Below are positions 5,504-51,800 of a DNA stretch of 64,000 nucleotides, piece by piece. The stretch comes from Diphasiastrum complanatum (taxonomy: Eukaryota > Streptophyta > Lycopodiopsida > Lycopodiales > Lycopodiaceae). Location of the stretch: assembly GCA_029204225.1 (NCBI GenBank), contig MU832088.1, forward strand, positions 1 through 64,000, in the 5' to 3' direction. Numbering within the stretch: the first letter of the stretch is position 1; each line of letters opens with the position of its first letter. A model generated the notes under the pieces. That model was not told the origin of the DNA, did not search any database, and worked only from the letters and a program-made list of their open reading frames with translations. Position numbers and translations under genes: made by a program.

Positions 5504-8430
5504 TCTATGCGTGCTCGTTCCAAAACTCGGGACTAGAGCTTTAAGACTGAAAATCTTGGTGTCCTCAATGCAAAAACTGAAGCAGGATTAGCAGAATTTT
5601 TGAAATTATTGTATGCTTATAGTGAAATATGAGGTGGGACGATTTATCAACGCAACATAAACATTACAAAAGTAAGGTATGAAGGATCTATTCATGTTGA
5701 TTAACTATAATTTGAGCATTAACAGATTGTAGCTTTCAACAATGGCAATGTTCCATTTTCATGTAGCTCTTCCTATGCAATGCACACCAATTATTAAGAA
5801 AAATTTGAAAGTTGTAGAGAATGTTGCTGCAATAGTTAGAGAATTGAGAATGAATAATCATATGAATATAGATTTGTGGGTGGATGGATCAATTTACCCT
5901 AATGATCCAGCTACCAATTTGTGTCCAGATTTTAAGTCCATAACTCATCTTCTCAGATTTGTATGTGAAGAAATATCAGATTACTTGGATATTGTCAAAA
6001 GTTGCGTGATATTGGAATGCATAACATATCTTGTCTTAATCAGCAATTACAGTTTGCTAATAAACAATTGCAACATGCAAATCAACAATTGCTTCCTTAT
6101 GTGCAACACACTAGTTTTGAAAACAATGCACTCAAGAATGCTATGTCAGAGTTGAATGCTGTAGTCACTACTCTTTGGGGATCAAATCAAGAAATGTTAG
6201 AATCCATGGAAAAGTTGCGATCCGAGAGTTTAAAATCAGTTGTTGATATAAAAGTTATTAAAAAGGCAATGATGAAAAAAGAAAGAAAGAGAGTACCGAT
6301 GAAGAATATTGATGACTTATCTACACATAGCGGCAATAAAAAAAAAAAAGAATTCGAGCATTCAAGTATGTATTCATATAAACTGTTTATTTGATTTGTA
6401 TATGTCATTTACTTTTGATTTGCACTTGATAACATGAATTATCTATTTGTCAAAAATAATTTGGATTTTTATGTTTGTTGCAGATCATGTTTGGTGGCAA
6501 AGAACTATTTAACAGATCGTTCGTGCATTGGATCACCTTTAAGTCATGTGTTACCAAGAAAGTCAACAAAGGAAATGATGAAAAATGCTTGGTTTGAAAA
6601 AATGAAAAATGAAATTGCAGAGACTGTTTTGATTAAGGTTCAATCATACCTGGATGCAAATGTGATACAAGGTGCATGTGATGTTTTCGGAATTAGCAAA
6701 AATGCTTATTCTATTTTTTTAGATTAGTTAAAGAAGCTTTTTTCCAAGTGATGGTGAAAAAATCTTATCTTCCACGTTCGTATCGAGTAAGATTAGCAAG
6801 AAATTATTATAATGACTGAATGTTCAAAGTAGTTGGACAACCACTTCATATAACTGAATTATACAAATCAGAATATGGTGAGCTCAATTACAATGATTGC
6901 AATAATATTTTTCTTGATATTGAAAATGTTCTAAAATACATTATTTGATTCTATAAACTAGACGAACATCAAGTAAATGCTTCTTGGTTTCCAAGGGGAG
7001 GCTCGAACCTGGGACCAAAGAAACTTGGGATGCAACATCAAATAAATGGAAAGATCATCATTGTAATAAAATTGGATGAATCTGAAATCATTAAAGGTCA
7101 AAAGTTGGAATGAGTGAGTGTCACTTTGATGAACAAAATTTTAGATACAGATGATCGAACGTTTAGTGTTCAATCGAAAAATCACATATGGTGGCTGGCG
7201 GCATTCCAGGTATACATTTCAATTTTTATTTAGAATATCATTATTAGCATTTCATACCTTGCCAGTTTTTATTAACATGTCATGCATTACTTGCTTCTCT
7301 ACAAGTCTTGAAAGAGAACCATAAAATACTTTCATAGATATTTTCAAGAACAAATTATGACAAGATTATAAAAAGACAATTAGAGGTTGAGAAATTTACA
7401 GTCGAAAACCATGGAAGTTTTCAAATTCAATGGCACTTTGCAAGGGATTTGAAAACATTAAAATGTATGTATAATGTCTCTCATGGGGAAACATCAAAGC
7501 ATCCATGTCTTTAGTACATGAAAGATTGCTACAATATGAATTTGGGACGATCAAACACTGGCCCAACACGAGAAGCTGAAGATCCAAATATGAAAAGTGT
7601 TCTGCCAATTCCATTAAAAAATGTACACATATGCACATTGCATGCTGAGGTTCGTATTATTGAAAAACTTGTTTACCTGTATATTCTACTAGCATGGAAT
7701 CATAAACCGGAGTCTGAGGCTAAAGCAACAATTAGGAGGTTGGAATAGTTCTATCAAATGCAGGACTACATAAAGGGAATGTCATGATTGAAAAAGACTC
7801 TTCGGAAAGAAAAAAAAAACATTCCTAATAAGCCATCAATTGGAGGTGCTAAAGCAAGAAGATTTTTATCCAATTACACGTGCAAAGAATCAAGTGTTAG
7901 ATACGAAATTTGGAGAGAAATTTTTCAAGCAACACGAACACTGAAAGGAAGTAATCGAGTGGAAAAGGGACAAGTGTGGACCAACTTAGACAAACTCATA
8001 GGTGTTATCAAGAAAGAAAATATCATTAGAAGATATGAGAACTTTGCAAAATCATTGCACCACATTTGTAAATCTATACATGATTGTTGGGGAAAAGACA
8101 ACATTACTCATTACATGGTGCTAATCTATATCATTATCTGGTACTTATCTCATTCTGGCGTATATTTTTTTCTACTAATGTAGCTAATCAAAACGCTTGT
8201 TTGCAGCACATCCTTCTTTATCATGCAACTTATTTTGCAAAGGAATATGAGAGCTTAAGTATCATCACAAGGCATGAAAATATCTCATTGGCAAGCAAGA
8301 GGAGCAATTCATAGAGCTACAAATCATGGAGGACACAATTCAAGAAATAAATATTTAGTTCAACTTTTTCAGTGGTTTTACATAAGAGCACAATTTAGAT
8401 ATCAAGCTAAAAACTCGCCAAATGTTACGA
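5504..8430 (+). pseudogene. T gene, transposase-like protein (copy 1)
   Basis: Unknown family shared with copy 2; a DDE-type transposase is my inference. The first exon starts at 5,504 (MRARSKTRD...). Next come IDLWVDGS and SITHLLRFVC, then a long Gln/Asn-rich coiled coil (about 6,030-6,340) ending in a lysine-rich stretch. After an intron (acceptor at about 6,483) comes LVAKNYLTDRSC to VIQGACDVFGISKNA. Later parts read IVIKLDESEIIKGQK, WHFARDLKTLKCMYNVSHG, HPC, VLPIPLKNVHICTLHAEVRI and, at about 8,205-8,420, SHWQARGAIHRATNHGG with LVQLFQWFYIRAQF. It contains about 150 codons (7,650-8,110) that copy 2 lacks. It is broken. Confidence 0.65.
6965..7048 (-). mobile_element. mini-SINE (tRNA-derived, 54 bp) with target-site duplication
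   Basis: The insert is 6,980-7,033. It is flanked by direct repeats aacatcaagtaaatg (6,965-6,979) and aacatcaaataaatg (7,034-7,048). Read on the minus strand it contains a pol III B box, GGTTCGAGCCTCC, and ends GGAAACCAAGAAG. It lacks the A-box half, so it is 5'-truncated. It sits in the T gene, where copy 2 has uninterrupted coding sequence. Related copies are at 32,454, 55,743 and 59,897. Confidence 0.85.
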
Positions 8431-8506
8431 TTTTTTGAAAGGCATTCAAATTCATAACAAAAGAGCTATCCTTGTAATATATCAAAAATCTTTTATAGAA
8501 AATTGT

Positions 8507-8945
8507 TTAATTATCATCATCATCCTCTTCAAGATTCAGACGGATGGTATTGTCATGAAGGAATAATCTGCTTTCACAGGGATCCAAAAATTTTAAATTT
8601 TTTCTTTTGTTCATATCAATGTAACCCGAATAAAGGGCCATTGCAGAAGATCTTTTTGTAGTCTCATTGGGAGTATAGCCCAATATTTTTATTGCCAAAT
8701 CCCTTTTCACAAAAATTATTTTATATGCTCCTTTTGCATACTTATGGCCTCCTAAACAAACTGATAATGATTTGATAGCCATAATGATAGTGGTTGCATA
8801 TGGATTAAAAGATGAATGATATATACAAATCTCATTATCTTGAAAGTTTTTCAAATAATGAGATAGAGACACATCCTTTCTCCTGGTTGATACACCTCGG
8901 ACGCCTCCATGTCTCATACCAAAGACATCCATTTCAATAGCATCC
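8507..8945 (-). pseudogene. M gene, last exon(s), unknown protein (copy 1)
   Basis: Not recognised as any known family. The minus strand reads DAIEMDVFGMRHGGVRG, LSHYLKNFQDNEICIYHSS, IMAIKSLSVCLGGHKYAKGA, IIFVKRDLAIKILGY and LFLHDNTIRLNLEEDDDDN, then stop. It aligns along its length with 25,218-25,678 of copy 2, including the exon start right after an intron acceptor (…TTTACAG at about 8,946). The tail is strongly acidic in both copies. The upstream exon has been lost toward the copia LTR. The 3' end faces the T gene across about 80 bp. Confidence 0.65.
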
Positions 8946-9111
8946 TGTAAACGAGTAAAGAAAATAAATTTAGAATGATATGTGTTATAGTTTCATCATA
9001 TGTGCTATATTTCCATATTGGCATATTGAGGCCAAAACTTGTTTTAGACTTAACGATTGACTTTTCAAAGGTCATTAGTCTAAATGTCACTTGAATAAAC
9101 ACTTTTTGAAA

Positions 9112-13200: not shown

Positions 13201-13429
13201 GTTGTGACCTGAGGACAAAACTACCAACATTGTGTGAGCAACCCCCATGGCTTGTTCCCACTTGAAATTCAGAAACATCTTATTAGAATGTTTGAACGCA
13301 TATGTAGTATCTTTATTCATGATAGTTCTCAACCCATCAGTGCCATCTAAAGGTATGTTTTCATAGCACTTAGAGATATCTGCAACCCATACATTGGTAA
13401 TCTTTGATGGTAGATTGAGATAAAATCAA

Positions 13430-22356: not shown

Positions 22357-23003
22357 GAATAATACTCAATTATATCTCGCTCTTTTATTTACACTTTGTT
22401 GGGTGATATCTAAGTCAAATTAGAGGAGTTCTCAATATCAAAAAGATTCTTTAAGGAATGCCATGTAGGATATACAAAAATATCAAAATTAAAAAAAAAA
22501 CAATATTGTTTATTTGCTTGCCCACACCACCCCCAAGGCCTCCCCAACTCCCAATGATCTAACCACAGTGTCTATAGTCACAGTTAAGAACTGTTAACAG
22601 TTCGCAGTATAATTTGACTACATTCAAAAATATTTCCTCCATTGGTTACGAAAAGGGCAATATTTTCACTAGATCTAGAATATGACCGCCATCTCCAAAT
22701 TTGAATCGAAAAAAATTGCAAAATGTTTACATATACATTCCTTCCATGAGAATGGAAATATGAGCGCCAACTACCTATGGGAATGAAAAAATGAGCGGCA
22801 TTTCCAAATTTAAATCAAGCATACAAGCATGGAGATTGGATTGATCGTACATAGTATATAATATAATCAAAGATGAGTATTTTGTTTTGCTTCATAGAAT
22901 CTGGTCATAGTACTTTGATGCAACTGATTACTCTATTATTTTTTTTATGATGACATTATATCATCTACATGTGGATATCCCTATTGATTTGGCACCTTTG
23001 CAG

Positions 23004-25097
23004 AGAAGAGGAGGCAAAGGAGTTCAAATATCTGCTGAAGATCGTTCTCGTTACAAGGCAAAAGGAAAGAAAAACTTGGATTTGTGGACAGATGGAACTT
23101 ATATCCACAAGATCCAAGCACTTTGACACATCCCACATTCTCTTCAATAACTCATTTAGTTACATGGATATGCAATGGGCATAGTGGATTACTAGGATAT
23201 TGTGAAAGATTGCAAAACCATGGAAAACAACTTTATATGAATCAAGTTCACTTTTTAGAAGGTGAGTTAATTCGGATATCCTCTTATTGTCAGAATAGAG
23301 ATTGTCATCTCCAAAAGACGTTAGAAGAAAATGAACAACTTAAAAATAATAATGAATCATTACAGAAGATAACAATCGATATCAAATCGGAACTAGAACA
23401 AATGCAATCAGTCTTACAGTCTATTCGTATTGAAAACTTACAATTATTGAAGGATGTGGATTTGGCAAAGAAGAAAGCTGAAAGTAAGAAGCGAAAGTGA
23501 AAAAGTTGCAAGGATATTCAAACGCTTTCAAAAGGAGGTTATCAAAATAGAAGGATCCGTGCATTCAAGTAAGCATATTGTGATTTTTGTAAGTTTTTTA
23601 ATGACATTTGGATTTAATTTCAGCTATGGTGATATTTTGTTAACTATCTATTTTTTTTGCAGATCTGCATTAGTAGCTCCTCGGAATATTAAAGACAATG
23701 CTTCACTAGGAATGTCATTGGGCACAATATTGACTTGCAAATCCACTAAGCGTATCATGATGAACAATAGGATTTCAAATGTAAAGTGTAAAATAACAGA
23801 GTCTTTGATGGTGGACATTCAAATTTTTTTAGATAAGACTATAGTTCAGGGTGCTTGTGATTTTGCGGGTATTAGCAGGGAAGCATATGCAACAATACTT
23901 AAACTAATTAGAGAAGCTTTTAAGCAAGTTCAAATTAGAAAACTCCCAATCCCTAGGACATATCATTTGAAGAAAGAGAGGGATACATTAAACATAGGTA
24001 TGCATAAGATCACTGGAACTCCATTTCATATTGAGGAGGTGTATGAAACTGATGGAAGATCGATATTCTATAATTCATCAAACAATTTATTTGTTGATCT
24101 AAATTACTTGCTGAGATACATCGTCACATTCTATGATATAACCTATGAAAAGGTGAATGGCAAAATAATCATAGTATTTAAGTTAGATGAGTCAGAAATT
24201 GTGAAAGGGCAGAAGATGGAAAGGGTTAGTATAACTCTCATGAATGGTGCTCTATCACAAACAGAGAACCAAGAAGATTTCAAATTCAGTGTCCAGTCAA
24301 AAAATGATATATGGTAGTTGGCAACGTTTCAGGTAACTAGCCTCATTATTACATTACATTCATTGAATAGTATTAATACATTGTAAACTAAGTCTGATTA
24401 ATTCTTTGGACAGGTGCTGAAAGAGTATCATGATATATTATCATGGATATTCTCAAGGACATCTTATCCTAGGATCATCAAGGACCATATGGATGGAGGA
24501 CTTCTCAATATTCCAGGAGTTGGAGACTTCAATGTTGAATGGCACTTAGCAGGTGATTTGAAAACATTGAAATGTATGTATAATGTCTCTCACGGTGCTA
24601 CACCAAAACACCCTTGTTTGTATTGCATGAAAATGGCAAAAGATGTAACTAGGAGTACAGGAATTACTAGAGAATATGCAGATCCAAACTGGAAGCCTGT
24701 GTTGCCTATCCCCTTAAAAAATGTGCATGTTTGCACTCTTCATGCAGAAGTTAGATTAATAGAAAATTTTCATATATATTTAGATCCAAACGTAAGACTA
24801 ACATTATGATTTTGACATATGCAGCACATACTAAGAGATCATACAACATTTTTTGCAAATACATATGGAAGCTTGAGTGTATGGTCATCACAAGGGATGG
24901 AGAAGTCACACTGGCAAGCACGAGCAGCATTTCATCGAAAAACACAACATGGAGGAACCAATGAAAAACGAAACTACATTTGTCAATTGTTTCAGTGGTT
25001 CTACCGCAGAGTTCAGATTCGACATATAACAAAGTCCACACAATACAACAAGTTTAAAAAAGCATGCAAGTTTATACAGGAAAAGAAAATTAGATGA
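23004..25097 (+). pseudogene. T gene, transposase-like protein (copy 2)
   Basis: Exon starts after …TTTGCAG at 23,003: RRGGKGVQISAEDRSRYKAK then LDLWTDG, SITHLVTWIC and a coiled coil (about 23,240-23,490). An intron (acceptor at about 23,661) leads to SALVAPRNIKDNASLGMSLG, VQGACDFAGISREAYATILK, KIIIVFKLDESEIVKGQK and, after an intron ending at about 24,413, EWHLAGDLKTLKCMYNVSHG, HPCLYCMK, VLPIPLKNVHVCTLHAEVRL. A last exon (from about 24,823) gives QGMEKSHWQARAAFHRKTQH and QLFQWFYRRVQIRH. KLDES, GDLK and LHAE could be the D-D-E triad of an RNase H fold, with CxxC between; this is inference. The layout recalls large uncharacterised transposon-linked proteins of animals and protists. A segment found in copy 1 is missing here. 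Confidence 0.7.
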
Positions 25098-25217
25098 TTG
25101 CTGAGTCGAAGATCATCATGACATATTCAGAATTGCTTTGCAAATTCATTGAACAAGACAGGAGAAATACCCAATGTAAATGTATTGATTGTATTATACC
25201 AAAATACAAAGTGTCAG

Positions 25218-25800
25218 CTATTCATCATCAGATCTTGTATCAGATTCTATCGTAGTATTGTCATGAAGAAATTCTCTGCTAGCGTATGCATCTAATAGAT
25301 GTGCATTATCCTTATTTCCACTAAGCTCAATATAAGTGGAATACAATGAATAATGGGAGCTCCTTAAAGGAACATTCCCATCAGTAAAGCCTAAAATGTT
25401 CAAAACATAAGATCTTTTGACAAAAATGATCTGATTTGTCTTAACAAATTTATGTCCTCCTAGATAAAATGATAAAGCTTTAACTGCCATTATAAGACTC
25501 TCCTCGATTGGGCTCAGCTTGGAATCAGCAATACAGATCTCATTTTTCAGGAAATGCCTAAGATAGTGGCCCAGTCCATTGTCCCTCTGGAACGAGGATG
25601 CGTGTTGTCTGAACCCACCTCGTCTTGCAGCAAAATCATCTATTATGAGAGCATCCTACAATAGGAAATTTGTTAGCAAAAACACATCAGTGATTGAAAA
25701 CATTCAAATGCAAGGAAGATTAAACACTTACACATTCTTCATCAGCAGTAGCAACCAGATCAGGATGATCAATATAATGACCATGTACTGAAGTGGAATC
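25218..25800 (-). pseudogene. M gene, unknown protein, last two exons (copy 2)
   Basis: Not recognised. On the minus strand an exon from about 25,800 reads HYIDHPDLVATADEEC. It is followed by a GT…AG intron (about 25,679-25,731) and the last exon, 25,678-25,218: DALIIDDFAARRGGFRQHAS, LGHYLRHFLKNEICIADSKL, MAVKALSFYLGGHKFVKTNQ, IIFVKRSYVLNILGF and a tail SDTRSDDE. It aligns with copy 1 (8,507-8,945) throughout. The LGGHK…IIFVKR core is best conserved. The 5' part is cut off exactly where the H3-tail/C48 frame starts on the other strand, which suggests a deletion joined the two. Confidence 0.65.
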
Positions 25801-27205
25801 ATTAGTGTCCAAGGATTTTCAGCTCCTGATGAGAATGAGGGATAGGTACTGTAGATTACATGTATCTCCTGCTCCTAGACCAACTCTTGTAGATAGGACT
25901 AATCTTCCTACGAAGCGTCCTAGGAAGCAGACAGCCCCCAGGCGTGCTCCTAAGAAAGTGAAGCCTAACCTTTCAGATTTTGTGAAGCCTATCCCAGAAT
26001 CCATTGTAGATAACGCTGCTATTGATAATGCTATAAATATAGCTACCTCTGTTTTGGATACTCCTATAATTGTTGTAGATACTACACATCCACCTCCTCC
26101 TCCTCCTCCCAATTTTTATACATATATAGATTCGGATGATTATCTTAAATTTGAGAAAGACATATCGGATGCTATATATACGATTGGTATTCCTTTTTGT
26201 TTTAGACTAGATGAACTTGATTTTAGTATTAATTTCAGAGTTCTAGATTGTCTGGATCTCAAAGACAGACGGGCTTCTATCAGTGATCATGTGATAGAGT
26301 CCGGGCTTACACTCTTGCAATATGACATTGCAAGATATTCATCAAATGAGTTGCTGGTGCAGAGTAACTTCCTGCTTCAGGCCTTCAAGGAGAACAATGA
26401 CACATTGTCACAGTGTCCGACAAGTGGATTCACACTAGCAACAAAGTATTTGCTCATACCTTATCATACGAAGTAAGTTATATTAAATGCTTCTTGTTGT
26501 TTTATGCATTAACATTGGCATTGTCAATGAAAAAAGTTCTCAAAATTGCAACTAAAAAAATTTCAATCTTATTTTGCAGTGACCACTGGAGTTTAAACCT
26601 AATCTCTATTAAGAGATCTGTAAATAATATTATTAAATGTTTTTGTGTCAAGATGAATTCGACGAGAAATACGCATAAGGATGTAGATATATACATTCCA
26701 TATCTAAGTAAATATATTCCTACAAACGTTCCCCATTTCGTGGACTGGCAGATCGTCAGCTTGGAGGTAAACTCTGTCTTTCTTAATAGCATTTTGAAAT
26801 CAGTATTCTAATGAAATATTTTCAATCTAATTCATTCTGTTTCATAATTGATTTCTTGTGTGCTGAATTATTTTGCAGTCACCCCAGCAAAATGATTCAT
26901 TCAACTGTGGGTGGTACACACTGTACAATGCCACATTGTTTTTTGAGTGGTTCAACCTTCAACAAGATGTTGATATTTCTAAGGTAATAAATTCTGTTTA
27001 TTCTTATTTTGGATTTATGATTAGTTTTTTATTCTGGTGATGTTATTGGCCATTACTAATACATGAATGTTCTATTTTGCAGTTTACACTTCCTGAGTAC
27101 ACATCAAGCCAGGTGTACAGATTTAAACAAGAAATTATCCTGACTATACTGGCTAGGGCAAGGCTTCAGCCTCCCGTTATTGATGATGTAGTTGTACTAA
27201 ATTAA
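25793..27205 (+). CDS. H3-tail/linker/C48 (Ulp1-like) cysteine protease, four exons (copy 2)
   Basis: Exons about 25,793-26,472, 26,580-26,766, 26,879-26,983 and 27,083-27,205, all with GT…AG introns and one open frame. It begins inside the last helix of a histone H3 fold (SKDFQLLMRMRDRYCRLHV; compare H3 PKDIQLARRIRG). A basic stretch (TKRPRKQTAPRRAPKKVKP), a run of seven prolines and a folded-looking middle follow. Then come DHWSLNLISIK, FCVKMNSTRNTH and SPQQNDSFNCGWYTLYN: the His, oxyanion Gln and Cys of clan CE family C48. Asn stands where Ulp1 has the catalytic Asp; a conserved Asp lies ten residues later. Likely role: a SUMO/ubiquitin-like or self-processing protease. The true start and most of the H3 domain are lost, so expression is doubtful. 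Copy 3 has the full layout. Confidence 0.75.
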
Positions 27206-27379
27206 GATCAAAAAAAATATAGATATCATAGAACAAAAATACATGTATAGACTTCATAGAAAAATATATATTGATATATCAAATGCTGTTCCAGTTTATG
27301 AATTTGGGAGCACAAAATGTACAGATGCCCAACTTGGGCTTTCATTTATTGAATGAAAGAGTGTATACACAAATTTTTA

Positions 27380-28330
27380 CTAAAATTTATTTGAAACTAC
27401 TGTTCTCCCACAATGGTGATTGTTGTAGGTAGATCTTTGCAGCACGTTATCAGCTCCTGTCTTTTTCGCATCTGTGACATGGCAAATATTAGTGAATGTG
27501 CAATTGTAAATGATGACATTTTCTATTATTTTGTTCCTTTTGTGAAATGGCAATAAACATAAAGTACTTACGAGTCTTCCGTTGATGATAAATCTGAAAT
27601 ATGCTGGTAGATTGGTTTGTAATAGCATGAGCTCTGTTCTGATAAAATCAAGCTTCCAGTGCTCTTCCACCTCAACCATAGTCAAATATTTCTCATTGTA
27701 GATAATGCTTATCTCCATTCGGTCTGTGTGACCATTTAGTTCAAAGTCTTGATCCAGTGGTAGCCATGTACCTTCAATTTTCTTGTATCTTTGGTAGCTT
27801 CCTCTATATTGCAGCTTTCCAACATCAGAGTGAATCACGTCTAATATTCCTGCAAGTGATTTTGCAGGCTCCCATTCACTTATGCATGATGGATACAAAT
27901 CTGAAAAAAAAAAAACAATGTTGAAGCATTTAAATCATAATCTGAAGAGCATCAATAAAGGAAATCACCTATGATTGTTGTAGAGTGCATATATTTTGAT
28001 ATAGTTACAATTACATTTTTTATGATCATGAGGATTGATATCATGTACTTTGATTTCTGAATGCATATATACATGTTGCACTAAGACTTTTGATATCGAT
28101 TGACCTCCCGGGGTAGTCTTAAACTCCAAAAATTTTGCTTTCCAATAAGATTTGTAAGTCATTTTTGCTCTTTTCTTTTGTCAAAAATTGCCCTTTGATG
28201 ATGGATGCAGCAATACCCATGAGTTCTTCGTATATTTTGTTGGCTTCCAGTTATCAGCTTCATCTTTCTCATTGTAAAGAATCACAGAATGGATTGTAGA
28301 TATGGGTCTCCTTGCCATTGCTATTTTCAA
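27380..28330 (-). pseudogene. N gene, unknown protein at the right end of copy 2
   Basis: Unrecognised. From the 5' side: MARRPISTIHSVILYNEKDE (about 28,318 downward), YKSYWKAKFLEFKTTPGGQS and HVYMHSEIKVHDINPHDHKK (about 28,160-27,970), then after a probable intron SCISEWEPAKSLAGILDVIH, GKLQYRGSYQRYKKIEGTWL and DFIRTELMLLQTNLPAYFRF. A probable further intron leads to a short last exon (DAKKTGADNVLQRSTYNNHH). It is convergent with the protease gene, about 170 bp away. A few breaks are present. Nothing in it identifies a polymerase, capsid or nuclease; it could be a DNA-binding accessory protein. Confidence 0.45.
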
Positions 28331-28780
28331 AGCTTGGGCGCGAAAAATCTCTCTGATATGTTACTTAATTTTAATTTTTCGTATCACATTTAATTCAATG
28401 TGAATGCCAACATAGTCATAGTTACTACGTATACCATATTTTATGCAACTGTACATACTATATTTCTATAACTGTAACTAGTATAGTTAGAAAATTTCAT
28501 TATACTAACTAGCATAGTAAAGTAAATTTAACTTGAGGTATTGACGTCGGGCAGATTAGCACGTGTCGGGCAGGAAGAAGAAACCAATGGGATACGTCCA
28601 TGCTGCTCGGACACAAATTTCAAAGTTTTCTATATTGCATTTCTATTTTTTAGTTAATCTGAACTACGTTACGTAGATTTCAAATCTGTGCATTTTGATT
28701 GGGCCTGGTGACGGTCGAAACTAAAGAAAGAAAATAAAAGTATCTTTACAAAGGGTCTTTTTGATATTGAGAACTCCTCT

Positions 28781-29699
28781 GATGTCTAAACCACAAGGCT
28801 TATATGCCAAAACACAGGGTTCTTTTTAAATTTTAAAACTCCTCAATAGACTTTACCACCATTTTCAACGATCAAGATGTTTTTCATTATATCCGACGGA
28901 TGAGATTGCTTACCTCCTCCACAAGGAATTCACGTGGAAGAGGAAGGGAATTGCTATAAGAAAAGTGGGTCAAAATAATGTCTTTTCAATGGTAAAGGTG
29001 ATCCATCACTAGTGGACAACGACCTACTGCATATTATGTTTGCTCGGTATTATCTCTTTATCTCTTTACGTATGTTTTGTCATATATCGAATATGGACAA
29101 TGATATGCAAAGTTATGTGTCTCTTTCTTCACAGCGGCTTCTAGATTGCAGAAGTGCATCTCTATTCGTTTTTTTTGGATTTGAAATACACTCTCATACA
29201 GGTATGTATATGGCAAGCATCATTATGACTAGACTGAATGATAACATACGAATTATTGCATGCTTTCTTTTAGGAGAAGCGGTTTCATTTTGAATCTAAA
29301 TATGTGCTGATTGGCATTGTTTATTATGCTACCACCGTTGTGTAACAATGGCAATAACTAAACTTGAACTCGCTTACTAGCATTCTTTGAAGGAAACGTC
29401 TCTCGTAACAAACATGACTTCCTCACAGGATTTGGTCACGACATCTATTCAAGTTAGTGTTGCAAAACTTATTTGGTGTATTGCTCACAATAAAATGATG
29501 TTGTTGACAAACAATAGGAAAACATTCCTACGCTACCTATATCGGAAAAAAGTAAGCTACTAATCTAGTTTCATTTTTTTTCAAAGAAAACATGCTTCGC
29601 TAACTAAGGCTTCACATATTATGATTCTTTAGCTTTCCCATGCAGAAAGTTTTAAACCAATAAACACAAGTATTGATAACCTAGGCGCCCTTAATGCAC
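28781..29699. other. no gene; one further element-end-like motif
   Basis: At about 28,810-28,850 a sequence resembling the element ends recurs (GGGTTCTTTTTAAATTTTAA then AACTCCTC), possibly the edge of another related MITE. The rest has only a 93-codon frame (29,012-29,293) with no recognisable domain. Confidence 0.4.
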
Positions 29700-33079: not shown

Positions 33080-33938
33080 GTCACCAGTGCCCATAAAAAA
33101 TTCACAATTACAAACAGCCCAATTGTGGAGGTTCTCATTTTATCTCTTGCCTTGTAGATTTTTCGGTTCAGAATCAGTTAGTTCAGCAATCATATCTCAC
33201 CAGTGTTCATAAGAAATTCACAAAGACAGCCCAATTGTTAAGATTCATGTTTTAGGCTTCATTTTTGGATTGGTAGGTTTTTAGATGGTTCAAAATCAGT
33301 TAGTTTCAGCTATGAATTCCAGATTTTAGAGTTCTTTTCTAGCATCTGATGAAAATCTGGTGGGTTTTTTTATGAGGTTGGTTTGAAACTCTTTTACGAG
33401 CACTGAAATTTCAGCTTGACCCAGCTTTTGTCTCGTTGCAGCCTTGCTTTTGTGTCGAGAGTGCAAATGGTATATGACACACTAGTACAGCAGCAGCATT
33501 CGCCCATTTCGGTCGTTTCTTCGCAGCTCGCTCACTGCTCTTGATTATGTGGTGAAATTATCTATGACGAGTACTGCCACATATCACCGCTTTCATTTTG
33601 CAAACAGGTCCAGATTTAAACTCTTATTATTATTCTCATTGCTCAATGGTTTTGTTGCAGCTGTATTTGGGCATGCCGAGCATAGTCCAGATATGGGAAT
33701 TCCATTTATCATTTCTGTTGTAGTACTATCTGCTCCCGTGTGCTCCTTGCTTTCCCTAGTACGTATCAGTCATCTTTGGATCTATGATTGAGCAGATTCT
33801 TTCATGTGAATTTATCGAAGCCTGGAGCTCAAATCTCGCAAATGCAATTAATGCAAATAGTTAACCGTTTTGAGATGCGCTATGTAGAGGCGTAGAGGTT
33901 TGTGTGAATCCAAATGCGAAAATAGAGCTAAAGACGTT
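33075..33938 (+). other. upstream region of the aspartic protease gene
   Basis: Holds only a 76-codon frame from an ATG at 33,564 with a hydrophobic middle (FKLLLLFSLLNGFVAAVF), ending at 33,791. It might be an upstream open frame or non-coding leader. I could not place the promoter with confidence. Confidence 0.3.
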
Positions 33939-35633
33939 ATGGAATCCGATTGCAGCAACAACAAAATGGCTTCTCTTCTGAAGTCCACGAGTAGAAGGTT
34001 CAACTTTGTTCATCAGTTTATTTTTTCCGCCTCTATTCTATGCTTCCTCTTTGGTCTTTCGGCTGCGGCATCGTCTTCTTATTACACGAACCAGCATTTA
34101 TCCTTCCACGACGGGTTTCAGCCAGATTTTCTCTCAAATTTCTGGAATGGCACAACGCTTTCACCCGGCAGTTCACATAGAATTCTCGAATCTAAGGAAG
34201 GCGAATTCTTGAAAGCAGGTTCAAAGAAGAGGCAGGTGCGAGGAGGCGCAAATGAAATAAAACAGCGGATGTCGTTGAAGCTCATCCACCGATCTTCCCC
34301 ACACTCTCCACACCCAAAGAATCACTCTGCTCAAGTCCACCTTCTAAAGGATTTGCTAGAGTTGGATGCTGTCAGATTGAAAGGATACAGGTTTAGCTCT
34401 AGGGTCAATAATGGACGCCTTGCCTCAAATTCCATGAGGAGAGCAGGGAAAGCTGCCGATGCTAGAATCACCCATGCGAGGCACCATTCAGATAGCGCCA
34501 ATGATAGGATTAGTTCGGGTGCAACTTTAGGCTCGGGTCAGTACTTTGTAGATTTCTACGTAGGAACTCCAGCAAGAAAATATTCCCTGATCGTGGATAC
34601 TGGCAGTGATTTAATCTGGGTTCAATGCCACCCTTGCAGAAGATGCTACCCACAATCAAATGCCATATATTACCCCAGGAACTCATCATCTTTCTTATCG
34701 GTTCCTTGTACTGCTAATCAATGCTTTCTTGTTCCAGCACCACGCGATGCCCCTTGCGATCTTAGATCCCCAACAAGCTGCAGATACACTTACATGTACA
34801 GCGATACGACTTCTACCACTGGCATCCTCGCTTCTGAGACGGTCACCATGATGTCCAGCTCTGGAAAGTGTTTGAAGATCAGCAATATCACGTTTGGCTG
34901 TGGGATACGGAACGGAGGTCCGTCACTACTTGGATCTAACGGCGTCCTTGGTCTGGGGCAGGGAGCCGTTTCTTTCGCATCTCAGGTGGGATATCGATTT
35001 GAGAGCAGATTTTCTTATTGCCTGGTAGATTATCTAAAACCTATTACGGAAAGCAGTCTGCTGGTGTTTGGAGATGCCAATATCAAGCGATCTCTGAAGG
35101 ATGCTATCCAGTACACTCCTCTTTTGAAGAATATATTTGCAGAAACGTACTACTATGTAGGCATTAAGCATGTTTGCGTGAACGGACACGTTCTGCCTAT
35201 TCATTCAAAAGAGTGGCAGATTGACGCTGCTGGCTATGGCGGCACCATCGTCGATTCTGGCACAACCCTTACATACTTCAGACAAGCGGCTTATTCACGT
35301 ATATTAGCTGCATTTCAAAGAGCCATCACTTTTCCTAGAGTAGCATCCATCCAAGGCTTGGATCTCTGTTTCAACTTCTCTGCGGCCTCTGGCAAACAGA
35401 TGCCTGAATTCTCCTTCCTTCTTGAAGGAGATGTCGTCTTTCAGCCCCCACCAGAGAACTACTTTGTTGACACAGCTCCAGACGTGAAGTGCCTTGCAAT
35501 GCATGGTGTTGCTTCACCTCTTGCATCAAACACAATTGGAAACTTGCTGCAGCAGAATTTTTTTGTAGAGTATGACAGATTGAAGGCCCAACTGGGTTTT
35601 GTTAGGGCAAACTGCTCTTCTTCATCATTGTAG
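33939..35633 (+). CDS. nepenthesin-type aspartic protease (family A1), intronless
   Basis: 564 codons in one exon. The first in-frame ATG is at 33,939; a second at 33,966 (aacaaaATGgct) has a better context and puts a hydrophobic signal segment (FVHQFIFSASILCFLFGLSA) nearer the N-terminus. Residues ~40-190 form a propeptide (SLKLIHRSSPHSP is typical). The mature enzyme begins near GSGQYFVDFYVGTPARKYSL. Catalytic Asp220 lies in VDTGSDLIWVQC and Asp439 in IVDSGTTLTYF. The Cys-rich nepenthesin insert follows the first motif (CHPCRRCYPQ…PCTANQC…SCRYTYMYSD). The gene ends GNLLQQNFFVEYDRLKAQLG. Expected to be a secreted or vacuolar/apoplastic endopeptidase, as for CDR1- and ASPG-like plant proteins; the exact role is unknown. 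An AATAAA lies at 35,795. It looks intact. Confidence 0.93.
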   Translation: MESDCSNNKMASLLKSTSRRFNFVHQFIFSASILCFLFGLSAAASSSYYTNQHLSFHDGFQPDFLSNFWNGTTLSPGSSHRILESKEGEFLKAGSKKRQVRGGANEIKQRMSLKLIHRSSPHSPHPKNHSAQVHLLKDLLELDAVRLKGYRFSSRVNNGRLASNSMRRAGKAADARITHARHHSDSANDRISSGATLGSGQYFVDFYVGTPARKYSLIVDTGSDLIWVQCHPCRRCYPQSNAIYYPRNSSSFLSVPCTANQCFLVPAPRDAPCDLRSPTSCRYTYMYSDTTSTTGILASETVTMMSSSGKCLKISNITFGCGIRNGGPSLLGSNGVLGLGQGAVSFASQVGYRFESRFSYCLVDYLKPITESSLLVFGDANIKRSLKDAIQYTPLLKNIFAETYYYVGIKHVCVNGHVLPIHSKEWQIDAAGYGGTIVDSGTTLTYFRQAAYSRILAAFQRAITFPRVASIQGLDLCFNFSAASGKQMPEFSFLLEGDVVFQPPPENYFVDTAPDVKCLAMHGVASPLASNTIGNLLQQNFFVEYDRLKAQLGFVRANCSSSSL

Positions 35634-44596: not shown

Positions 44597-44890
44597 TGTG
44601 AAAGATTTTAGATCATTATGATCCAATCTACTTGAATGATATTTGGTTAGAAAGAGAAATACACTCCAATCTCACCAATGTAGAAAAATCAGCATCTACA
44701 CACAAAATGAGATGCAAACACTAATAGAACTTGATCAAACTTGAATGAAATGAAAAAGTACTGTTGTTGTCCATACAAAACCAGCAAGCTACTGTATTTC
44801 ACACGTGAGGATCCAAAAATAGCAAATATAGATCATTCTACACAGAATTGCAAGCAATCACCAAGATAGTGCACCAATGGATAGTGCCAA
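44597..44890 (-). mobile_element. partial LTR, same family as 9,325-9,620
   Basis: Reversed, this matches the last 300 bp of the copia LTR at 9.1-9.6 kb: the ends ATCATTCAAGTAGATT…ATGAT…AAATCTTTCACA and TGTGTAGATGCTGATTTTTC correspond. No primer site or coding part is attached. It lies directly beyond the 3' end of element copy 3. Confidence 0.85.
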
Positions 44891-45522
44891 TCATCATGTC
44901 TTTTTATCAATATAGAATATTGCATTTTAGTATTACACTATGGACACAACCTGATTGTAAGAATCTATATTGATATTAATAAAAAAATCCATAAACGGGT
45001 TGTTTACATGCAAAATGATTGTATCCTTTTTTTTTGTGTATCTCTTTTTACAAATAGATCTCTATTCAATTTTTCTATATTTTCTTTATCAGTATTAGGA
45101 ACTGATAAGGGAACAGCTCCTTCTATAATCTCATCTTTCTCTGTTTCGGGACGGGCCTCAATGCCTTTTAAGACAATAGGACTCTTTGCTATTATATTGC
45201 CTTCCTTTGTATTAGAAAGGACTTCTATTTCTTTTTTATCATCTATAAAAATATCTGCATCCTGAGCAACCTGAAAGACTGTTAAGGAAGAGCAGCTTGC
45301 TTTTGAGGGCCCTCGATCTCAAGTGCAATGCTTACACCGTTTTGAACATAGGTTCTGATCAACTCTTGCCGAAATCTATATACATCGTCAAGAGTATACG
45401 GTTCAAGAGTGAACTCTCATCACGAAACACAAGAATCAGAAAATTACAAACAATGATAGTAAAGAAATATGAATCAGAATGAAAGAAACTACAAATGAAC
45501 AGAATCCACTTCTAAATTATAC

Positions 45523-45617
45523 CACTCAAAAAATAGCTTTGTATTGTATAGGATGAAAAATGTAAAACACCACTCAAAAAATAGCTTTGTATTGTATAGG
45601 ATGAAAAATGTACAACT
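45523..45617. repeat. 48-bp tandem duplication in protease exon (copy 3)
   Basis: CCACTCAAAAAATAGCTTTG…GATGAAAAATGTA occurs twice in tandem. The period is a multiple of three and it lies in the exon that carries the Gln and Cys motifs. Copy 2 has only one unit here. Confidence 0.9.
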
Positions 45618-46006
45618 AAAAGCGTCCTTTTGCTGTACACACTACATATATACAAAAATTAGTAATATTATGATAGAAAATTTATTTATGCTATGATGAT
45701 AGATTTGAACTAAAAAGGAATACATGCATATCAAAGATAAATTGAATATACCTTGAGAGATCTAATGGTTATCTCTCCAATTGAGGTTGTCGTTGTCGGT
45801 ATTTTTCAAACGACATCATAAAGTAGAGAATCAAATTCTCTATGTGTATTTGCAGCTGAGTTTAATTTTACACATAGAAAATTTGATGCTCCCTCCTTAT
45901 TTATCTTTACAGAAATAATGTTCAGGCTCCAATGCCGACTGCAACAACCAAAATACAAATATCGATAAATCTATACTTATTAAAGCAATTTTTACCTATT
46001 ATAGCA

Positions 46007-46132
46007 ATGCCGCATGCAACAATCCATATTAAAGCAACAAAAACAAAAGAGCAATCCTTACTTATTGAAGCAATGCCGCATGCAACAATCCAGATTAAAG
46101 CAACAAAAACAAAAGAGCAATCCTTACTTATT
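46007..46132. repeat. 66-bp tandem duplication in intron (copy 3)
   Basis: ATGCCGCATGCAACAATCCA…CAATCCTTACTTATT occurs at 46,007-46,072 and again at 46,073-46,132, with one difference. It spans the 5' splice-site side of the intron before the protease His exon. Confidence 0.92.
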
Positions 46133-47324
46133 TTCATATGGAATCAAATAAAATTTCGCCACAGGACTGCATTCGATAAAATATACAGCCTTCTTAAAAT
46201 TGGTTTGCCTTTATCGCTCCCATGAAAAATGCACTAACAACAAAAACAATACCATGGGAATCAAAACTAATACTATTCTACAAAAAGGATCCTCCAGCTT
46301 CTACTATTACATCTGAATTTTTTGATGTTTTATCTTTCAGCTCGGCACAAAATTTGGGACCTAATCTAAAGCTTTTAAGTGAATCTGGAAGAAAAAATCA
46401 AAATAATTGCCAAGAAGATCAATTTTATTAGCTAGGTAGGCCTTGTACTGGTTATAATGGTCAGAATCAAAGTAAACTTGGGCAGAATTGTTTGGAATTC
46501 TTACAAAAAGATTATTAGAGGAGTAGAAAAAGAAGTTTCTACAATATTTACGGATTTCTCTATTATTTTGTCGAGCTCCTCTTGGATAATCAACACTTTT
46601 GGTGAAGAAACCTGCTGAGGAGCTGGACGAATAATAGGAGAAAAAAGAGGTGATGATTCTCGATCTGAATCAGATTCTCCAGCATCTGACTCAGAGCTCA
46701 AGACGATCCGGGGTCTCTTGGCCGGAATAAATTTAGGAGGAAGGGAAGTAGTTGGCCTTTGAGATCTAGCCTTCTTGGGGATAGGCTGCTTCCTCTTCCT
46801 CCTAGAGGTAGTCGGCAAGTTGTTTCTATCTAGAGGCAGGTCTCTGGAGGTGCTGGCGTTATCAACATGTAGACCAAAAAAACGGTCCCGAAGTCTTCTG
46901 AGAATGACGAAATCTTTTGGCATGATGGTGACATGCTTACCGTGCACTGCCAAAAGACAAGTATCCTCAAAAAACTGGGACAAAAAAACTTCTACATCAT
47001 CCTGTAAGGCCTGCATGGCTGTCACGACAAAACGAACATTTAGCCCAAGTGACAGAGTGACATTCCTTATAGATCGACTGAAAGGAGCTCTAGGGATCAA
47101 CAGTTCAGTTGATCTCTAGAGTTTTCTAATCTCCCTCAATCAGACCTGCTTCTTGCCATGTCTACGACCAGTACCAGGGGGAACACGGGCATGGCATGGC
47201 TGTACAGTGGTTATGGCACGGGCAATGGATTTGGTCCTGGCCATCATTCTGATAAAAAAGAAATTAAAAAAAAAAATTGAACAAAAGTGCAAGGAATGAA
47301 AACAAAAAAAATTTACGATAAAGG

Positions 47325-47502
47325 GGCACTTGAGATCGATACCATAACTGAATATCGGTTTTGAGCGCAAGATATACACGGAATATTTTTAGAAAGGAGA
47401 TGCGTGCTCGAAAGCGATATTGGACTAACAGTGGTATCGGTCTCGAGCGCATTGTTAGAAGGCGGACGATTAAATGGTGAGAGAGCGCGCTTGAGAGTGA
47501 TA
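47325..47502. repeat. 17-bp inverted-motif array, left arm (5 copies)
   Basis: Forward form TATCGGTYTCGAGCGCA at 47,353 and 47,435. Reverse form (consensus TGCGCTCGAAAGCGATA) at 47,325, 47,403 and 47,486. Reverse-to-reverse spacing is 78 and 83 bp. Each reverse/forward pair is separated by 11-15 nt and could fold as a stem-loop in RNA or DNA. Confidence 0.8.
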
Positions 47503-47882
47503 TTGGGAGCGAAAACCAAAAATTCTGCAAAAAAAATGAAAATTTCGAGGACTTATATATACAAAATTTTTGCACGTGTGAAAAAACGGCCGAGAACACG
47601 TGTCGTCATCTAATTCGTGCACGTGGAATGTCCGTACTGACAATGATGACCTCATTATGAGGCCACGTGGGCTGGGACACATGCATGAATCCTTTTTCGA
47701 CACGTGTCATTCTCGCACGTGACAGATGTCAGATCAATCATTGTATGTACGGCGTATTAATTCTGACCAATCATACGTGGACATGTGTTTTTTTGTAACT
47801 CCTCCACATGTGTGAATTTTTTTTTATAAATAGGTCATTTTCGGCTCAAATTTTCACGCAAATTTTAGATTTCTTGTCCGGA

Positions 47883-48110
47883 TATCAATTTCAAGTGCGC
47901 CATTTGCACTGATTACCCTCCGTTAACTTACTTGCGCTTGGAACCGATACTGCCTCATCCAGTCTCGCATTCAAGTGCACCTTACATTGCATTTCTTATC
48001 TGCTCTTTGTTCACGTGCTCGGATCCGATACCCTAATTTCTAATATCACTTTCGAGCGCACATTGCCTTGAGGTTCTTGTCTGACCTGCAGTTTGCGCCT
48101 GAGAGCGATA
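47883..48110. repeat. 17-bp inverted-motif array, right arm (6 copies)
   Basis: Forward copies at 47,883 (TATCAATTTCAAGTGCGC), 47,963 (weakest) and 48,044 (TATCACTTTCGAGCGCA). Reverse copies at 47,932, 48,014 and 48,094 (TGCGCCTGAGAGCGATA). Forward-to-forward spacing is 80 and 81 bp, reverse-to-reverse 82 and 80 bp. Reverse/forward pairs have 13-nt loops. The last copy ends 33 bp before the ATG of gene X. Confidence 0.8.
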
Positions 48111-48143
48111 TTTGGAATTTTACTTCTGTAGTTTTTGTTTAAA

Positions 48144-48840
48144 ATGTCTAATTTTGATTCTAGTTTGCTTTCTTTTTTTCATGAATCTGGTATTATTGAT
48201 AATTTGGAGTATTTCAAATCTCTTTTTTCTCCTTTTCTTTTTATTCTTCCCTCTATTGCTGAGGGTCCCGGTGTGGAGGCATTTTTTGAGATATATCTCA
48301 GAATTATGTCTCTGCTCAGTCCTCCGTTATTCAAATCTCAGAATAAGGACATGATTCATTATCAGGACCTGGTGGCACTCGACAAGCATAGCTATAAAGC
48401 TAAGTTTGACAGAATGTTCACCAAGTTACATAAAGATTCCAAGTCTGTAGACGAGTGCCCAATTCACAATAAAAAATGTAGATTTGTTGATTTTTAGTCT
48501 GCATTTGTTTTTTTTTTTTAGTTAAATATTTTTAACTATTCGGAAGCTGTCCCTTCCACTTCTGAAGCTGCTTCTTCCAGTGATACAAAGTCTAAAAAGT
48601 CAAAGATTGTAGCTATAGATTTTTTTTTAATTGATACGAACGTTAATTTAGATGATTGTTCATATTTTGATCCTATTTGAAATAGGAAATCGTTTATAGG
48701 CCCTAGAACACCCACTACCCTTTCTCCTTCTGATAAATCTTTGATCACTTTGCCTACTTATAATATAAATAATAATTCTTTTTTGACAATATCGGATATA
48801 TCGGATCTTTTTTATTTCACTGAATGTTGACAGATCCTTT
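48144..48840 (+). pseudogene. gene X, unknown protein divergent from the H3-protease gene
   Basis: The ATG at 48,144 opens 117 codons to 48,497: MSNFDSSLLSFFHESGIIDN, GPGVEAFFEIYLRIMSLLSP, MIHYQDLVALDKHSYKAKFD, then DECPIHNKKC. The continuation after 48,530 is Ser-rich (VPSTSEAASSSDTKSKKSK) and then reads SYFDPI, PRTPTTLSPSDKS and SDISDLFYF. Introns are likely but not certain. The family is unknown. By position, divergent from the protease gene, it could be the 5' half of gene M, which also lies head to head with the protease gene in copy 2; that is inference. A few breaks are present. Confidence 0.5.
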
Positions 48841-51800
48841 GCTTGGGAAGATATGTTTACTCATTTCTTTGCTTACTTCTTCTTATGTCTGTCAGCAAAG
48901 ACAATGGGCTCTTGCTTAAGTTATTCTTTCTTGTTAAAGCCCAAAATCAGGCAGAAGGGACAGATTAACGTTGTAGTATTTTGTCCTGCCTGTCAGAGGA
49001 CAACTCAGGGTCGTTCCCTCTTGAAAGCACTCACACTCAAACAGAGATGCAAGCCATGAACATTCATTTATAGATCAGCATGCAGCCCAAATGAACATTC
49101 AATAGTTTCTACAGCTACCTACTCTAAAAATGAACTGAATCAGATCCTACACATTACTAAAACTGAGCTACACTTGGATTAATCCACAAAGCTGAAACAA
49201 GAAATTAATCTACAGCATTTTAGAGGTCCAAGAATCAAGAAACCAACCAGTCTTTTGATTCTTGGACATCCCAAGAATGTCAAGAACTAGAATGTCAAGA
49301 ATATGCAGGATCTTCACCACATTTCTAGCCTATTTAGTTTACTTGAATGTCGATTCCTACATTAATCCACAAACAAGAAATGAAAACTAATCCACAACTA
49401 GGAAAGCAAGAAAACTAATCCACTCTAAAGTCCACAACCACACACAATATGAATGGAAGGGCATGATCATAGGGGCATCACTCAAGAAAACCACCATGAT
49501 CAAGGAGCTTAGTGTAGTATCAAACTCATGAAAAATCTTCTTATTAAGCATGGAGTAGATACAATGCAAAAAGCTCCTCTTCACAAAGAGGGAGTCTTTA
49601 TAATAAGCAAGAGAGCTCCTTAGGTGGCATCCTAGTGGAATTTCCACAATTTTCAAATTACAAGTGGAATTATGCTCTCCATTAGAGGTCACCATCAAAA
49701 GGTGAGGGGTCTACTTGCATTTATTACTTTGCCTAGAAATACTAGTTCCTACATGGTCATTCTCTTTCGGGATTCTCCATGAGGCTTACATAGTTCTTGC
49801 TTGTCATTACTAACTAGTATTCCTCAGCTCTCAGTCTTTGTAAGACTCGTCTTTTCAGAGACCTCCTCGGTCTAAGGTGAGAGGTGCTCTTGAGTTGCTC
49901 TGGTCGAGTATCTTGGGGATTCGTCAGAATCAGCCAACATCATCCCACCCCTAATGTGTTGTAGGACCCACTGCAACCTATATTGGACGATGTCGCTTCG
50001 CTTTACATTGGCATTTTCGATTGTCACTTGGAGAAGCGTAGATCCTCGTTCGCTTGCATAAAATCAAGTGTTTATTGTTGCCGATCTTTATCAAAATCGG
50101 TTTCGCAACTTGCCGCAATGTAATCAGAATGTCTTATTGCTGCAAGTGGTTGACATTCTCAAAATTGGAGAACTCCCAGCAGCTTCACAACTCGCATACT
50201 CGAGTGCTTTTCTCGTGTCTATTTCTTTCGTTGCATCTACCATGGATGGTTTCACTATTAATTTGTGGGCAGATTCTAACTTATGGGAGGTCTGTATCCT
50301 CCATTTGCTTCTGGGTGTTTCTGTGGTTCTTCTCTTAGTTGAAGTTCCAGTCTCAAGGGAAACCTTTGTTTTGCGGGTCGTACAAACTTCGATTATCAGT
50401 CTCAAGAGGATGGACTCATCATCAATAAATTGGTGGTAGGAACAGATTTGGGTGGACGGTTTGGTAATGGTAAGGAAACATGATGAAGGCTTGGTGGGAG
50501 GGTGAAGGAACTGATAGTTCTACAGTTGCAGCCTTGGACCCTTACAATGTCGAGCTTTGACCACCGCTTGCTGGGTGAGGAGCTTGTTTTATTTTGTAGG
50601 TTCACGGATGTCTTCAACTTTCTTTCTTTTTTTCTGCAGCACTTTCTTTGATCCATTACTTTTGGATCTCTTTGGGCTTCATAAGAGGGGATTCAACCAT
50701 CATTGCTCCAGAGAGTCTCTTTTGATCAAGATCGATCTGACTTAACTGTTGCTTAAGTTTTTTCCTTTCCTCCTCAGCTTCTTGGATTTTTCTCTTTATT
50801 TCTTCTAGCTTCTTCGCTTGCTTCTTAGATCTTTTTTGGCTGATCAACCAATGTAGGTGGTAGTTGGTCTCCGCAAGACACTTGCAATGATCTTTTAGTC
50901 GCTTCAGTAAAACTTATCAAAAAACTGGGAATTTCTCAAAAGAACAGTGAATTGATGATAAACAAACAGATGGACGGTAGAGGTGGAGGTGGTGACATCG
51001 GTAGATGGTGTGGACGATAGGTATGAGAATGGGCGCAGAAGTACGGCAAGAGGCCGGTTGAAGAAGGAGACTGATTTTTCCAATGCTTGTGTTTTTCTTT
51101 TCTGAAGGATCTTCGTCATGACTGTGATACTTCTTCTGATTGAGTCACTTTGGATTACCCATCTGCTTGCTTAGCCTTGTCTTTATCCTCTTTGATTCGT
51201 GACATTGGCTGTCGATCTTGTTGATGGTGTTGTTGGCAATGTGGCTGCTCTAGTGGATCCAAGCAGATCCACTCTCTCTCCCCCCCACCCCCCAAAATCT
51301 GTTGGTGGGGATGTTGTTGCTAGTAACTATTCATGCTCAAGATTGGATCGTCATGTGGAAGACGTAGTTGAAACATGTTTAACTTGTGACTGGACTAAAG
51401 ATTGAACAAATTTTAACTAAATTTGTTTCGATCTTGTTGTAGTTGACTCAAAAATGAAAATAATTATGTTATGTAGGAATCAACTTGAAAGTGAAAAAGA
51501 TTTCTCAAATTTTCAATATGCTCAAAGATCGAAAACTCTTTGCAAGGTGATCTGAAGATGGACAGATGAATGAAAATGTGTTCTTGAGATGCTCTATGGA
51601 AGACTCTCGTGCGATAGCTATTTCTCATGCAAAAATCAATCACACACTAGGAATGAAGAGGAACAAGGAAATAAACAAACTGTATAGAGAGTGAGGATTG
51701 TATAGCACTTGTCAAACAAAACTTGCATTCATCAACATGGATAATTTTCCTTGACAATTGCAATATTTCATTTGTTTTGTAGAGTAATGATACTTACTCT

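Follow-up and report, generated by a model that had tools for sequence, protein, structure and literature searches.

Does a mobile element of Diphasiastrum complanatum really encode a protein that joins a histone H3-like domain to a C48 (Ulp1-type) protease, and what could such a protein do? The question arose from the first 64,000 nucleotides of contig MU832088.1 (forward strand, GenBank assembly GCA_029204225.1), the whole of which we call the window. A first-pass annotation, made from the letters alone, had proposed a mobile-element gene of this kind on the minus strand, opening with MARTKSIAR. We found the start codon at 47244, where the minus strand reads MARTKSIARA, and followed the gene (copy C) to 45004. 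Here we report strong support for the view that the fusion is real, is carried by transposons and is not a single occurrence. The parts of copy C and of the element around it are as follows.

46128..47247, minus strand: exon 1, with H3 tail, H3 core, linker and N-terminal half of the protease; donor AA/GTAAGG; homologous to the open 369-residue exon 1 of locus L024
47116..47244, minus strand: H3-like N-terminal tail (MARTKSIARA...), from reading frames; in-frame TGA and TAG
46858..47115, minus strand: H3 core from the end of alpha-N to alpha-3, 86 codons, open; matches Pfam Histone and H3 in PDB
46504..46857, minus strand: basic Ser/Pro-rich linker, recurring at every fetched locus; constraint not detected
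45752..45938, minus strand: exon 2, with RHWSL (catalytic His) and KLNS (Asn replacing the usual Asp); one in-frame stop
45493..45641, minus strand: exon 3, end approximate, with CVQQKDAFSC (Gln and Cys); donor lost
45004..45413, minus strand: exon 4 and acidic C-terminal tail; frameshift near 45284
44885..48842, no strand assigned: extent of the copy C element, from DNA similarity to fetched loci; its downstream end adjoins a Copia-type long terminal repeat (LTR) piece
48132..48494, plus strand: accessory open reading frame (ORF), divergent from the H3-C48 gene and head to head with it; has opposite-strand relatives upstream of H3 elsewhere

The H3 similarity, which had been read by eye, is significant in profile searches. 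The core of copy C matches Pfam Histone (PF00125) with E = 9e-17, above the curated cut-off, and a PDB search aligns 77 of its residues without gaps to solved canonical H3 (E = 9.1e-17). The two protease motifs named earlier are also in place, HWSLNIISVK within 45938-45752 and VQQKDAFSC from near 45641. The copy itself is decayed: in exon 1, two stops separate tail from core (TGA at 47142-47140, TAG at 47118-47116), the frame shifts near 46500 and there are additional stops; one stop interrupts exon 2; and exon 3 has lost its donor and carries a 48-nt tandem duplication (45521-45616) after CVQQKDAFSC. Taken alone, with H3 and protease in pieces, copy C would fit an H3 pseudogene lying by chance beside the remnant of an unrelated protease.

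That explanation is refuted by the linkage of H3 and protease at other loci, and we give it next to no credence. The searched assembly comprises 1.745 Gb, with contigs C1-C23 except C7 measuring 42-102 Mb, and contains at least 150 matches to the H3 core of copy C (the best 150 of 6,253 candidates), which, the window copy excepted, are 79-91% identical to it; this and the other copy numbers are lower bounds, taken from the best 150 matches. We fetched 20 loci of about 9.7 kb around such matches, picked partly for long open frames; they are not all independent, since L009/L010 and L016/L017 are near-identical pairs. The linker follows the H3 core in all 20, and C48 exons lie downstream on the same strand in 16. 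Of the four exceptions (L014, L019, L021 and L023), two, L019 and L021, retain similarity to the N-terminal protease half. The first-pass annotation had named the lack of any other adjacent pair as what would sink its proposal; adjacency in 16/20 loci, joined by three further families (B, D and E, below), speaks the other way.

A second copy (copy B) lies within the window in a separate element.

22419..28783, no strand assigned: element B, with terminal inverted repeats (TIRs) at 22419-22452 and 28750-28783
25793..26472, plus strand: copy B exon 1, 5′-truncated, with the last H3 helix, linker and N-terminal half of the protease; matched widely in the genome
26580..26766, plus strand: copy B exon 2, with DHWSL and KMNS, from reading frames and the profile match of the spliced protein
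26879..26983, plus strand: copy B exon 3, with PQQNDSFNC, on the same two grounds
27083..27205, plus strand: copy B exon 4 to the stop, from the reading frame
22950..25078, plus strand: transposase-like gene, in which a TAG replaces a conserved Trp
25221..25738, minus strand: accessory gene, with an open frame at 25221-25655; the exon to 25738 is our own reading
27383..27934, minus strand: second accessory gene

The frame of copy B (25793-27205) is open through four exons, and its spliced protein matches Peptidase_C48 with E = 3.3e-9 (37.4 bits against a cut-off of 20.7); linker and protease do recur there, as had been claimed. They do so inside an element with TIRs of 34 nt each, 91% complementary. 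The same claim held that this copy keeps only the last H3 helix, which is correct for the window copy and does not extend to its relatives. Exon 1 of copy B has at least 150 matches in the genome (the best 150 of 5,709 candidates), 79-98% identical apart from itself, and each of the six relatives that we picked for open frames extending beyond the aligned part encodes an entire H3 domain immediately 5′ and in frame (one with a stop in the tail). The single helix of copy B is thus a truncation.

We read 17 further H3-like loci (five B, two D, three E and seven F). The fusion gene is built alike in families B, C, D and E, with an H3 tail and core followed by a basic linker and then the C48 protease. 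In families D and E, H3 runs on into the N-terminal half of the protease in all three of the longer stretches (one with a stop), and the exon with the catalytic His-Trp is present in L101 (D) and L103 (E) and was not recognised in L102 (E). The intron before this exon is in phase 2, leaving two bases over, and has an identical position in all four families; of the shared intron positions and phase proposed earlier, this one is borne out, and for the remaining introns the comparison was visual. Exon 1 is open over 363-369 residues in L024, L016 and L101, with the frame of L016 shifted at its end, and the exons of different family C copies add up to a predicted product of about 600 residues. It is the linkage in four families, together with the constraint on the H3 core and protease parts and the transposon context of B and C, described below, that supports the fusion so strongly. 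Family F has an H3-like domain that mostly stands behind a proline-rich stretch and mostly ends in RRER(N), like free H3; fusion to a protease is not present in L104, the one longer stretch of this family read. In L104 a separate frame starting MARTKQTARD is also seen. The multicopy loci of family F are L084, L086, L088, L092, L093, L096, L099 and L104.

The inverted ends and a transposase-like gene identify the carriers as TIR DNA transposons, on the basis of families B and C. The inverted ends of family C start CATTAGAGAAA (three loci gave left ends and six gave right ends, from different copies), and summing left-end-to-H3 and H3-to-right-end distances of different copies gives an element of about 9.7 kb. 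Element B has ends starting ATTAGAGGAG and ATCAGAGGAG, this start being similar to the family C end. A transposase-like gene lies upstream of H3 in 10/20 loci. For the protein of element B, 54 relatives with E ≤ 10 were obtained among 1,227 candidates, the named ones coming from the ferns Ceratopteris and Adiantum, and a Pfam search gave no match above cut-off. Other genes recur around the fusion gene: relatives of the ORF at 48132 upstream of H3 on the opposite strand (13/20 loci), relatives of the copy B accessory gene likewise (10/20), and the second accessory gene downstream of the fusion (9/20). We conclude that the multi-gene elements of this abundant group regularly carry the H3-C48 gene as an accessory gene. 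At positions 3996-4249 of L026, one element copy appears to be inserted in opposite orientation into the H3 core of another, a nesting that could reveal the target-site duplication. The fern relatives of the transposase-like protein belong to Ceratopteris richardii and Adiantum nelumboides; in Adiantum the relative is joined to a DUF7794 protein within one annotated protein.

We then asked whether the domains have been maintained. One reading would make the H3 part a functionless captured fragment that hitch-hikes like other transduplications, much as captured, mostly truncated H3 copies are found in fungal hAT elements (PMC6710886). Many of our copies are indeed broken: 21 of the 63 unique H3 cores have a stop, against 42 that are stop-free. 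Substitution counts argue otherwise. On a parsimony tree of the 63 unique cores (65 read), internal branches carry 78 amino-acid and 64 silent changes, where the spectrum of the terminal branches gives a neutral expectation of 2.26:1 (p = 3.5e-4); terminal branches carry 249 and 137. When 23 copies were divided into six segments, the ratio on internal branches relative to neutral was 0.52 for the H3 core (p = 0.0097), 0.61 for the N-terminal half of the protease (p = 0.0017) and 0.52 for exon 3 (p = 0.039). The linker, at 1.19 (p = 0.61), is unconstrained and serves as an inner control. These data show that the H3 core and parts of the protease were constrained while the elements spread. Besides this constraint on internal branches, a functionless passenger is at odds with the gapless alignment of 65/65 C-type cores (drawn from the list of full-core matches), with the open exon 1 stretches and with the presence of one fusion in four families that are 47–69% identical to one another in the H3 domain; we regard it as very unlikely. 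Of 959 differences from the majority base, 547 are G>A or C>T, as expected for methylated, silenced copies.

Among solved structures, the protease part matches those of the Ulp1/SENP type: a profile built from the four families finds SENP2 (3.7e-5), Ulp1 (8e-4) and SENP8 (0.003). All four families have the active-site His and an Asn (of M/LNS); Gln and Cys are found in B, C and E, the families whose exon 3 was read. Individual copies lack one or another of these residues. Some clan CE proteases are known to have Asn where Asp is usual, and the enzyme may work like a C48 protease with an altered triad.

Other H3 domains also match Pfam Histone, with E-values of 1.5e-23 for L024 and 8.5e-25 for family D. 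Family B has a one-residue gap against solved H3; loop 1 is longer in B (by one residue) and in E, and of canonical length in C and D. A canonical H3 would be nearly identical to host H3 and have a full tail with Lys9 and Lys27; families B–E do not fit this, with 43-52% identity to host H3 (39-47 of 90 positions) and a residue other than Lys at position 9 in every tail read but that of L019. F104, H113, K115, T118, D123 and R129 are nevertheless kept in 9/9 copies of B–F compared, R69 and R72 in eight each and R83 in seven; the first six are presumably contacts to H4 and to the second H3. In the tails, C-type copies have a Met at the expected place in 46/64 cases (in L057 by chance), and these keep Lys4 in 44/46, with Ala at position 9 in 40/46 and Arg (30/46) or Lys (15/46) at position 2. 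The 11 B-type tails read, MDRRKQTRRD or near, have Lys4 in 10 and Lys9 in none, and one D and three E tails (MARTKQTARL or MAQTKQIARL) all have Lys4, with Leu at position 9. Such an H3 part could act as a decoy that sequesters H4, H3 chaperones or proteins reading the ARTK-type tail and thereby weakens silencing or replication-coupled chromatin assembly, with the protease serving mainly for self-processing. Retention of an ARTK- or AKTK-type end by D, E and the majority of C-type tails would suit this, as would the kept contact positions for H4 and H3. A decoy by itself leaves the fused, partly constrained protease unexplained, and we think it distinctly unlikely.

Where might this histone have come from? 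W47, P63 and A65 occur in all nine B–F copies, T75 in all eight B–E copies and W84 in D and E (among other copies, L023 has Ser63 and L078 has Ala75). We take P63, A65 and T75, and likewise the W84 of D and E, to be residues of plant CENH3. In a tree of H3 domains, B–E form one clade (support 93) that joins F (67) and plant CENH3 sequences (73), apart from host H3. PDB searches with families B and C ranked canonical H3 first. Derivation of the fusion H3 from a CENH3-like histone is offered as a lead and not as a result. A genome search with a CENH3 query did not identify a host CENH3 in the best 150 matches, of which 20 were read: 13 were canonical-looking H3 (three read, all confirmed) and 137 were others (17 read, none canonical). 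Family F, judged from the one copy compared, has W47, P63 and A65 in common with the fusion families and may represent a repeat derived from CENH3. The three canonical host H3 genes read all have Tyr41 and Ala31; the first Phe41 H3.1 is reported to occur in ferns (PMC5809374). Together with the fern relatives of the transposase-like protein, this agrees with a clubmoss as host and makes a gymnosperm improbable.

A CENH3-like domain invites the idea of an integration-targeting module. Chromodomains and CENH3 chromatin direct the integration of some retrotransposons. By analogy, the H3 domain could steer the element to a class of chromatin that the protein marks or reads, for instance centromeric nucleosomes, with the protease acting in maturation or transposition. 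CENH3-chromatin-guided integration of centrophilic retrotransposons is cited in PMC13317346, and the CENH3-type residues and the tree grouping (support 73) lean the same way. Copies are also clustered locally: the number with a neighbour within 1 Mb is 34 for each type, where random placement gives 18.7 (C-type) and 17.7 (B-type), and 2/500 and 1/500 random sets, respectively, reach the observed value. Part of this clustering may be duplication. Insertion confined to one chromosome region was considered and is unsupported, since positions are uniform along chromosomes for 119/150 C-type (Kolmogorov–Smirnov p = 0.54) and 113/150 B-type copies (p = 0.70), a test that omitted C7, small contigs and a few close neighbours. 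Uniform positions speak against centromere-only insertion. With no preferred region, canonical H3 ranked first by PDB for B and C, and no host CENH3 among the best 150 matches, targeting of integration appears unlikely.

Transposons are silenced through chromatin, and few counter-strategies are known. The first-pass annotation had suggested chromatin targeting, entry into nucleosomes and SUMO removal as roles of the product, and as putative roles all three are plausible. We tentatively favour a combination of them, a real possibility if short of a probable one: that the fusion product is a chromatin-targeted, deSUMOylating anti-silencing protein. The H3 domain would pair with host H4, so that the protein would either enter nucleosomes or be carried by H3-H4 chaperones. 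The protease would thereby be brought to chromatin and could strip SUMO off silencing factors there. With Lys4 and without Lys9 in the tail (one exception read), that H3 subunit could not bear H3K9 methylation, and neither, on that H3, could the chromatin containing it. Anti-silencing action would resemble that of VANC/KIU in Arabidopsis VANDAL elements, aimed instead by a histone fold. A bolder version, a selfish nucleosome, strikes us as rather unlikely: the element would have taken up a CENH3-like histone, shortened its tail to the ARTK type (Lys4, no Lys9) and attached a SUMO-type protease to it, and the chromatin it specifies would resist H3K9 methylation and deSUMOylate the silencing machinery.

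Several observations weigh against an anti-silencing protein of this kind. The Peptidase_C48 profile scores family C at 18.1, below its cut-off, and gives no match to family E. The usual clan CE set of His-Asp-Gln-Cys is incomplete, Asp being Asn in all four families, so protease activity could be altered. As for constraint, internal and terminal H3 branches differ only at p = 0.055 (Fisher), the terminal H3 ratio of 0.62 also looks constrained, and neither exon 2 (0.84, p = 0.59) nor exon 4 (0.78, p = 0.42) shows significant constraint. The H3 figure is partly biased, since copies were picked through H3 similarity. Selection for long open frames may likewise bias the value for the N-terminal protease half; no such effect is seen in the linker, which belongs to that exon as well. 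One C-type copy read, L019, has Lys9. No copy open through all exons was seen, no systematic search having been made for one.

Among the closest known systems is CENH3/CENP-A, a divergent H3 with an altered tail that in plants has P63, A65 and T75 in common with our copies; the differences are that family C has loop 1 of canonical length and that the nearest solved sequences are canonical H3. To our knowledge, CENH3 proteins are free histones without a protease. Also close are the KIU/VANC-type genes of VANDAL elements (Mutator-like elements without TIRs) in Arabidopsis and other plants, which are likewise accessory genes of DNA transposons with a captured Ulp1 (C48) domain (PMC13317346). Ulp1 domains occur in anti-silencing VANC-type genes according to the same paper, and the anti-silencing role of VANC proteins has been reported (PMC5735166, PMC10398659). 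No histone domain is mentioned for them, the word 'histone' being absent from PMC13317346, whereas the elements described here have TIRs and a transposase-like protein without a Pfam match above cut-off. Ginger1 and Mutator elements are also DNA transposons encoding a C48/Ulp1 protease (PMC2836005); in Ginger1 the Ulp1 domain is C-terminal in the transposase, and 'histone' does not occur in the main text of that paper. In Dothideomycetes, hAT DNA transposons have multiplied an H3-like sequence, which reaches hundreds of copies (784 reported; PMC6710886). There, the H3 is intronless, mostly truncated and placed beside the hAT transposase, and 'fusion' and 'Ulp1' are absent from the main text. 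Nucleocytoplasmic large DNA viruses encode histone folds fused to other sequence (PMC9145170), in their case as histone-histone doublets or joined to proteins without a known function, and 'protease' is absent from the main text.

Transposon-captured H3 in fungi and C48 proteases in transposons were thus known before; for DNA transposons whose Ulp1 accessory gene carries a histone fusion we found no report. Open-access papers yielded neither a histone-protease fusion nor a transposon with a gene of this kind as a conserved component, and open-access full text does not contradict the earlier statement that none had been described. Homologues of the fusion were not found with the spliced copy B query (none with E ≤ 10 among 1,556 protein candidates), with the copy C ORF (none with E ≤ 0.001 among 202) or in three viral-contig scans. 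Their absence is weak evidence, since the protein set seems poor in plants and the copy C search returned no canonical H3 either.

If the proposal is right, an accessory protein combining a histone variant with a SUMO-type protease would amount to a direct attack on the nucleosome, and histone variants could be spread and remodelled by selfish DNA. Natural H3 variants mostly with Lys4 and without Lys9 would be useful for probing the role of these residues in silencing. There is also a hazard for annotation: in the search with a CENH3 query, 137 of the best 150 H3-like matches lie outside the canonical-looking H3 set.

Further features of the window concern its repeats and host genes. Element A is a decayed relative of the elements above.

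5733..8992, no strand assigned: element A, with a transposase-like gene and a minus-strand accessory gene; H3-C48 gene not detected

Within the first intron of the copy C fusion gene, a 66-nt tandem duplication, 91% identical, spans 45984-46115. The region 44597-44885, similar to 9329-9620, was considered as an element end and rejected, being a Copia-type LTR piece; the two pieces are 92% identical over 292 nt and lie in opposite orientation. The piece at 9329-9620 is followed by TGGTATCAGAGC, which we take to be a typical primer-binding start. The plus-strand ORF of 581 residues at 33888-35630, with DTGSDLIWVQC, is presumably a host aspartic protease-like gene, and 58121-56587 on the minus strand presumably a host protein kinase gene, both judged by motif. 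Finally, 13419-14283 and 15459-16295 hold tandem related ORFs, about 63% identical over 179 residues, the second one following a long CT repeat.

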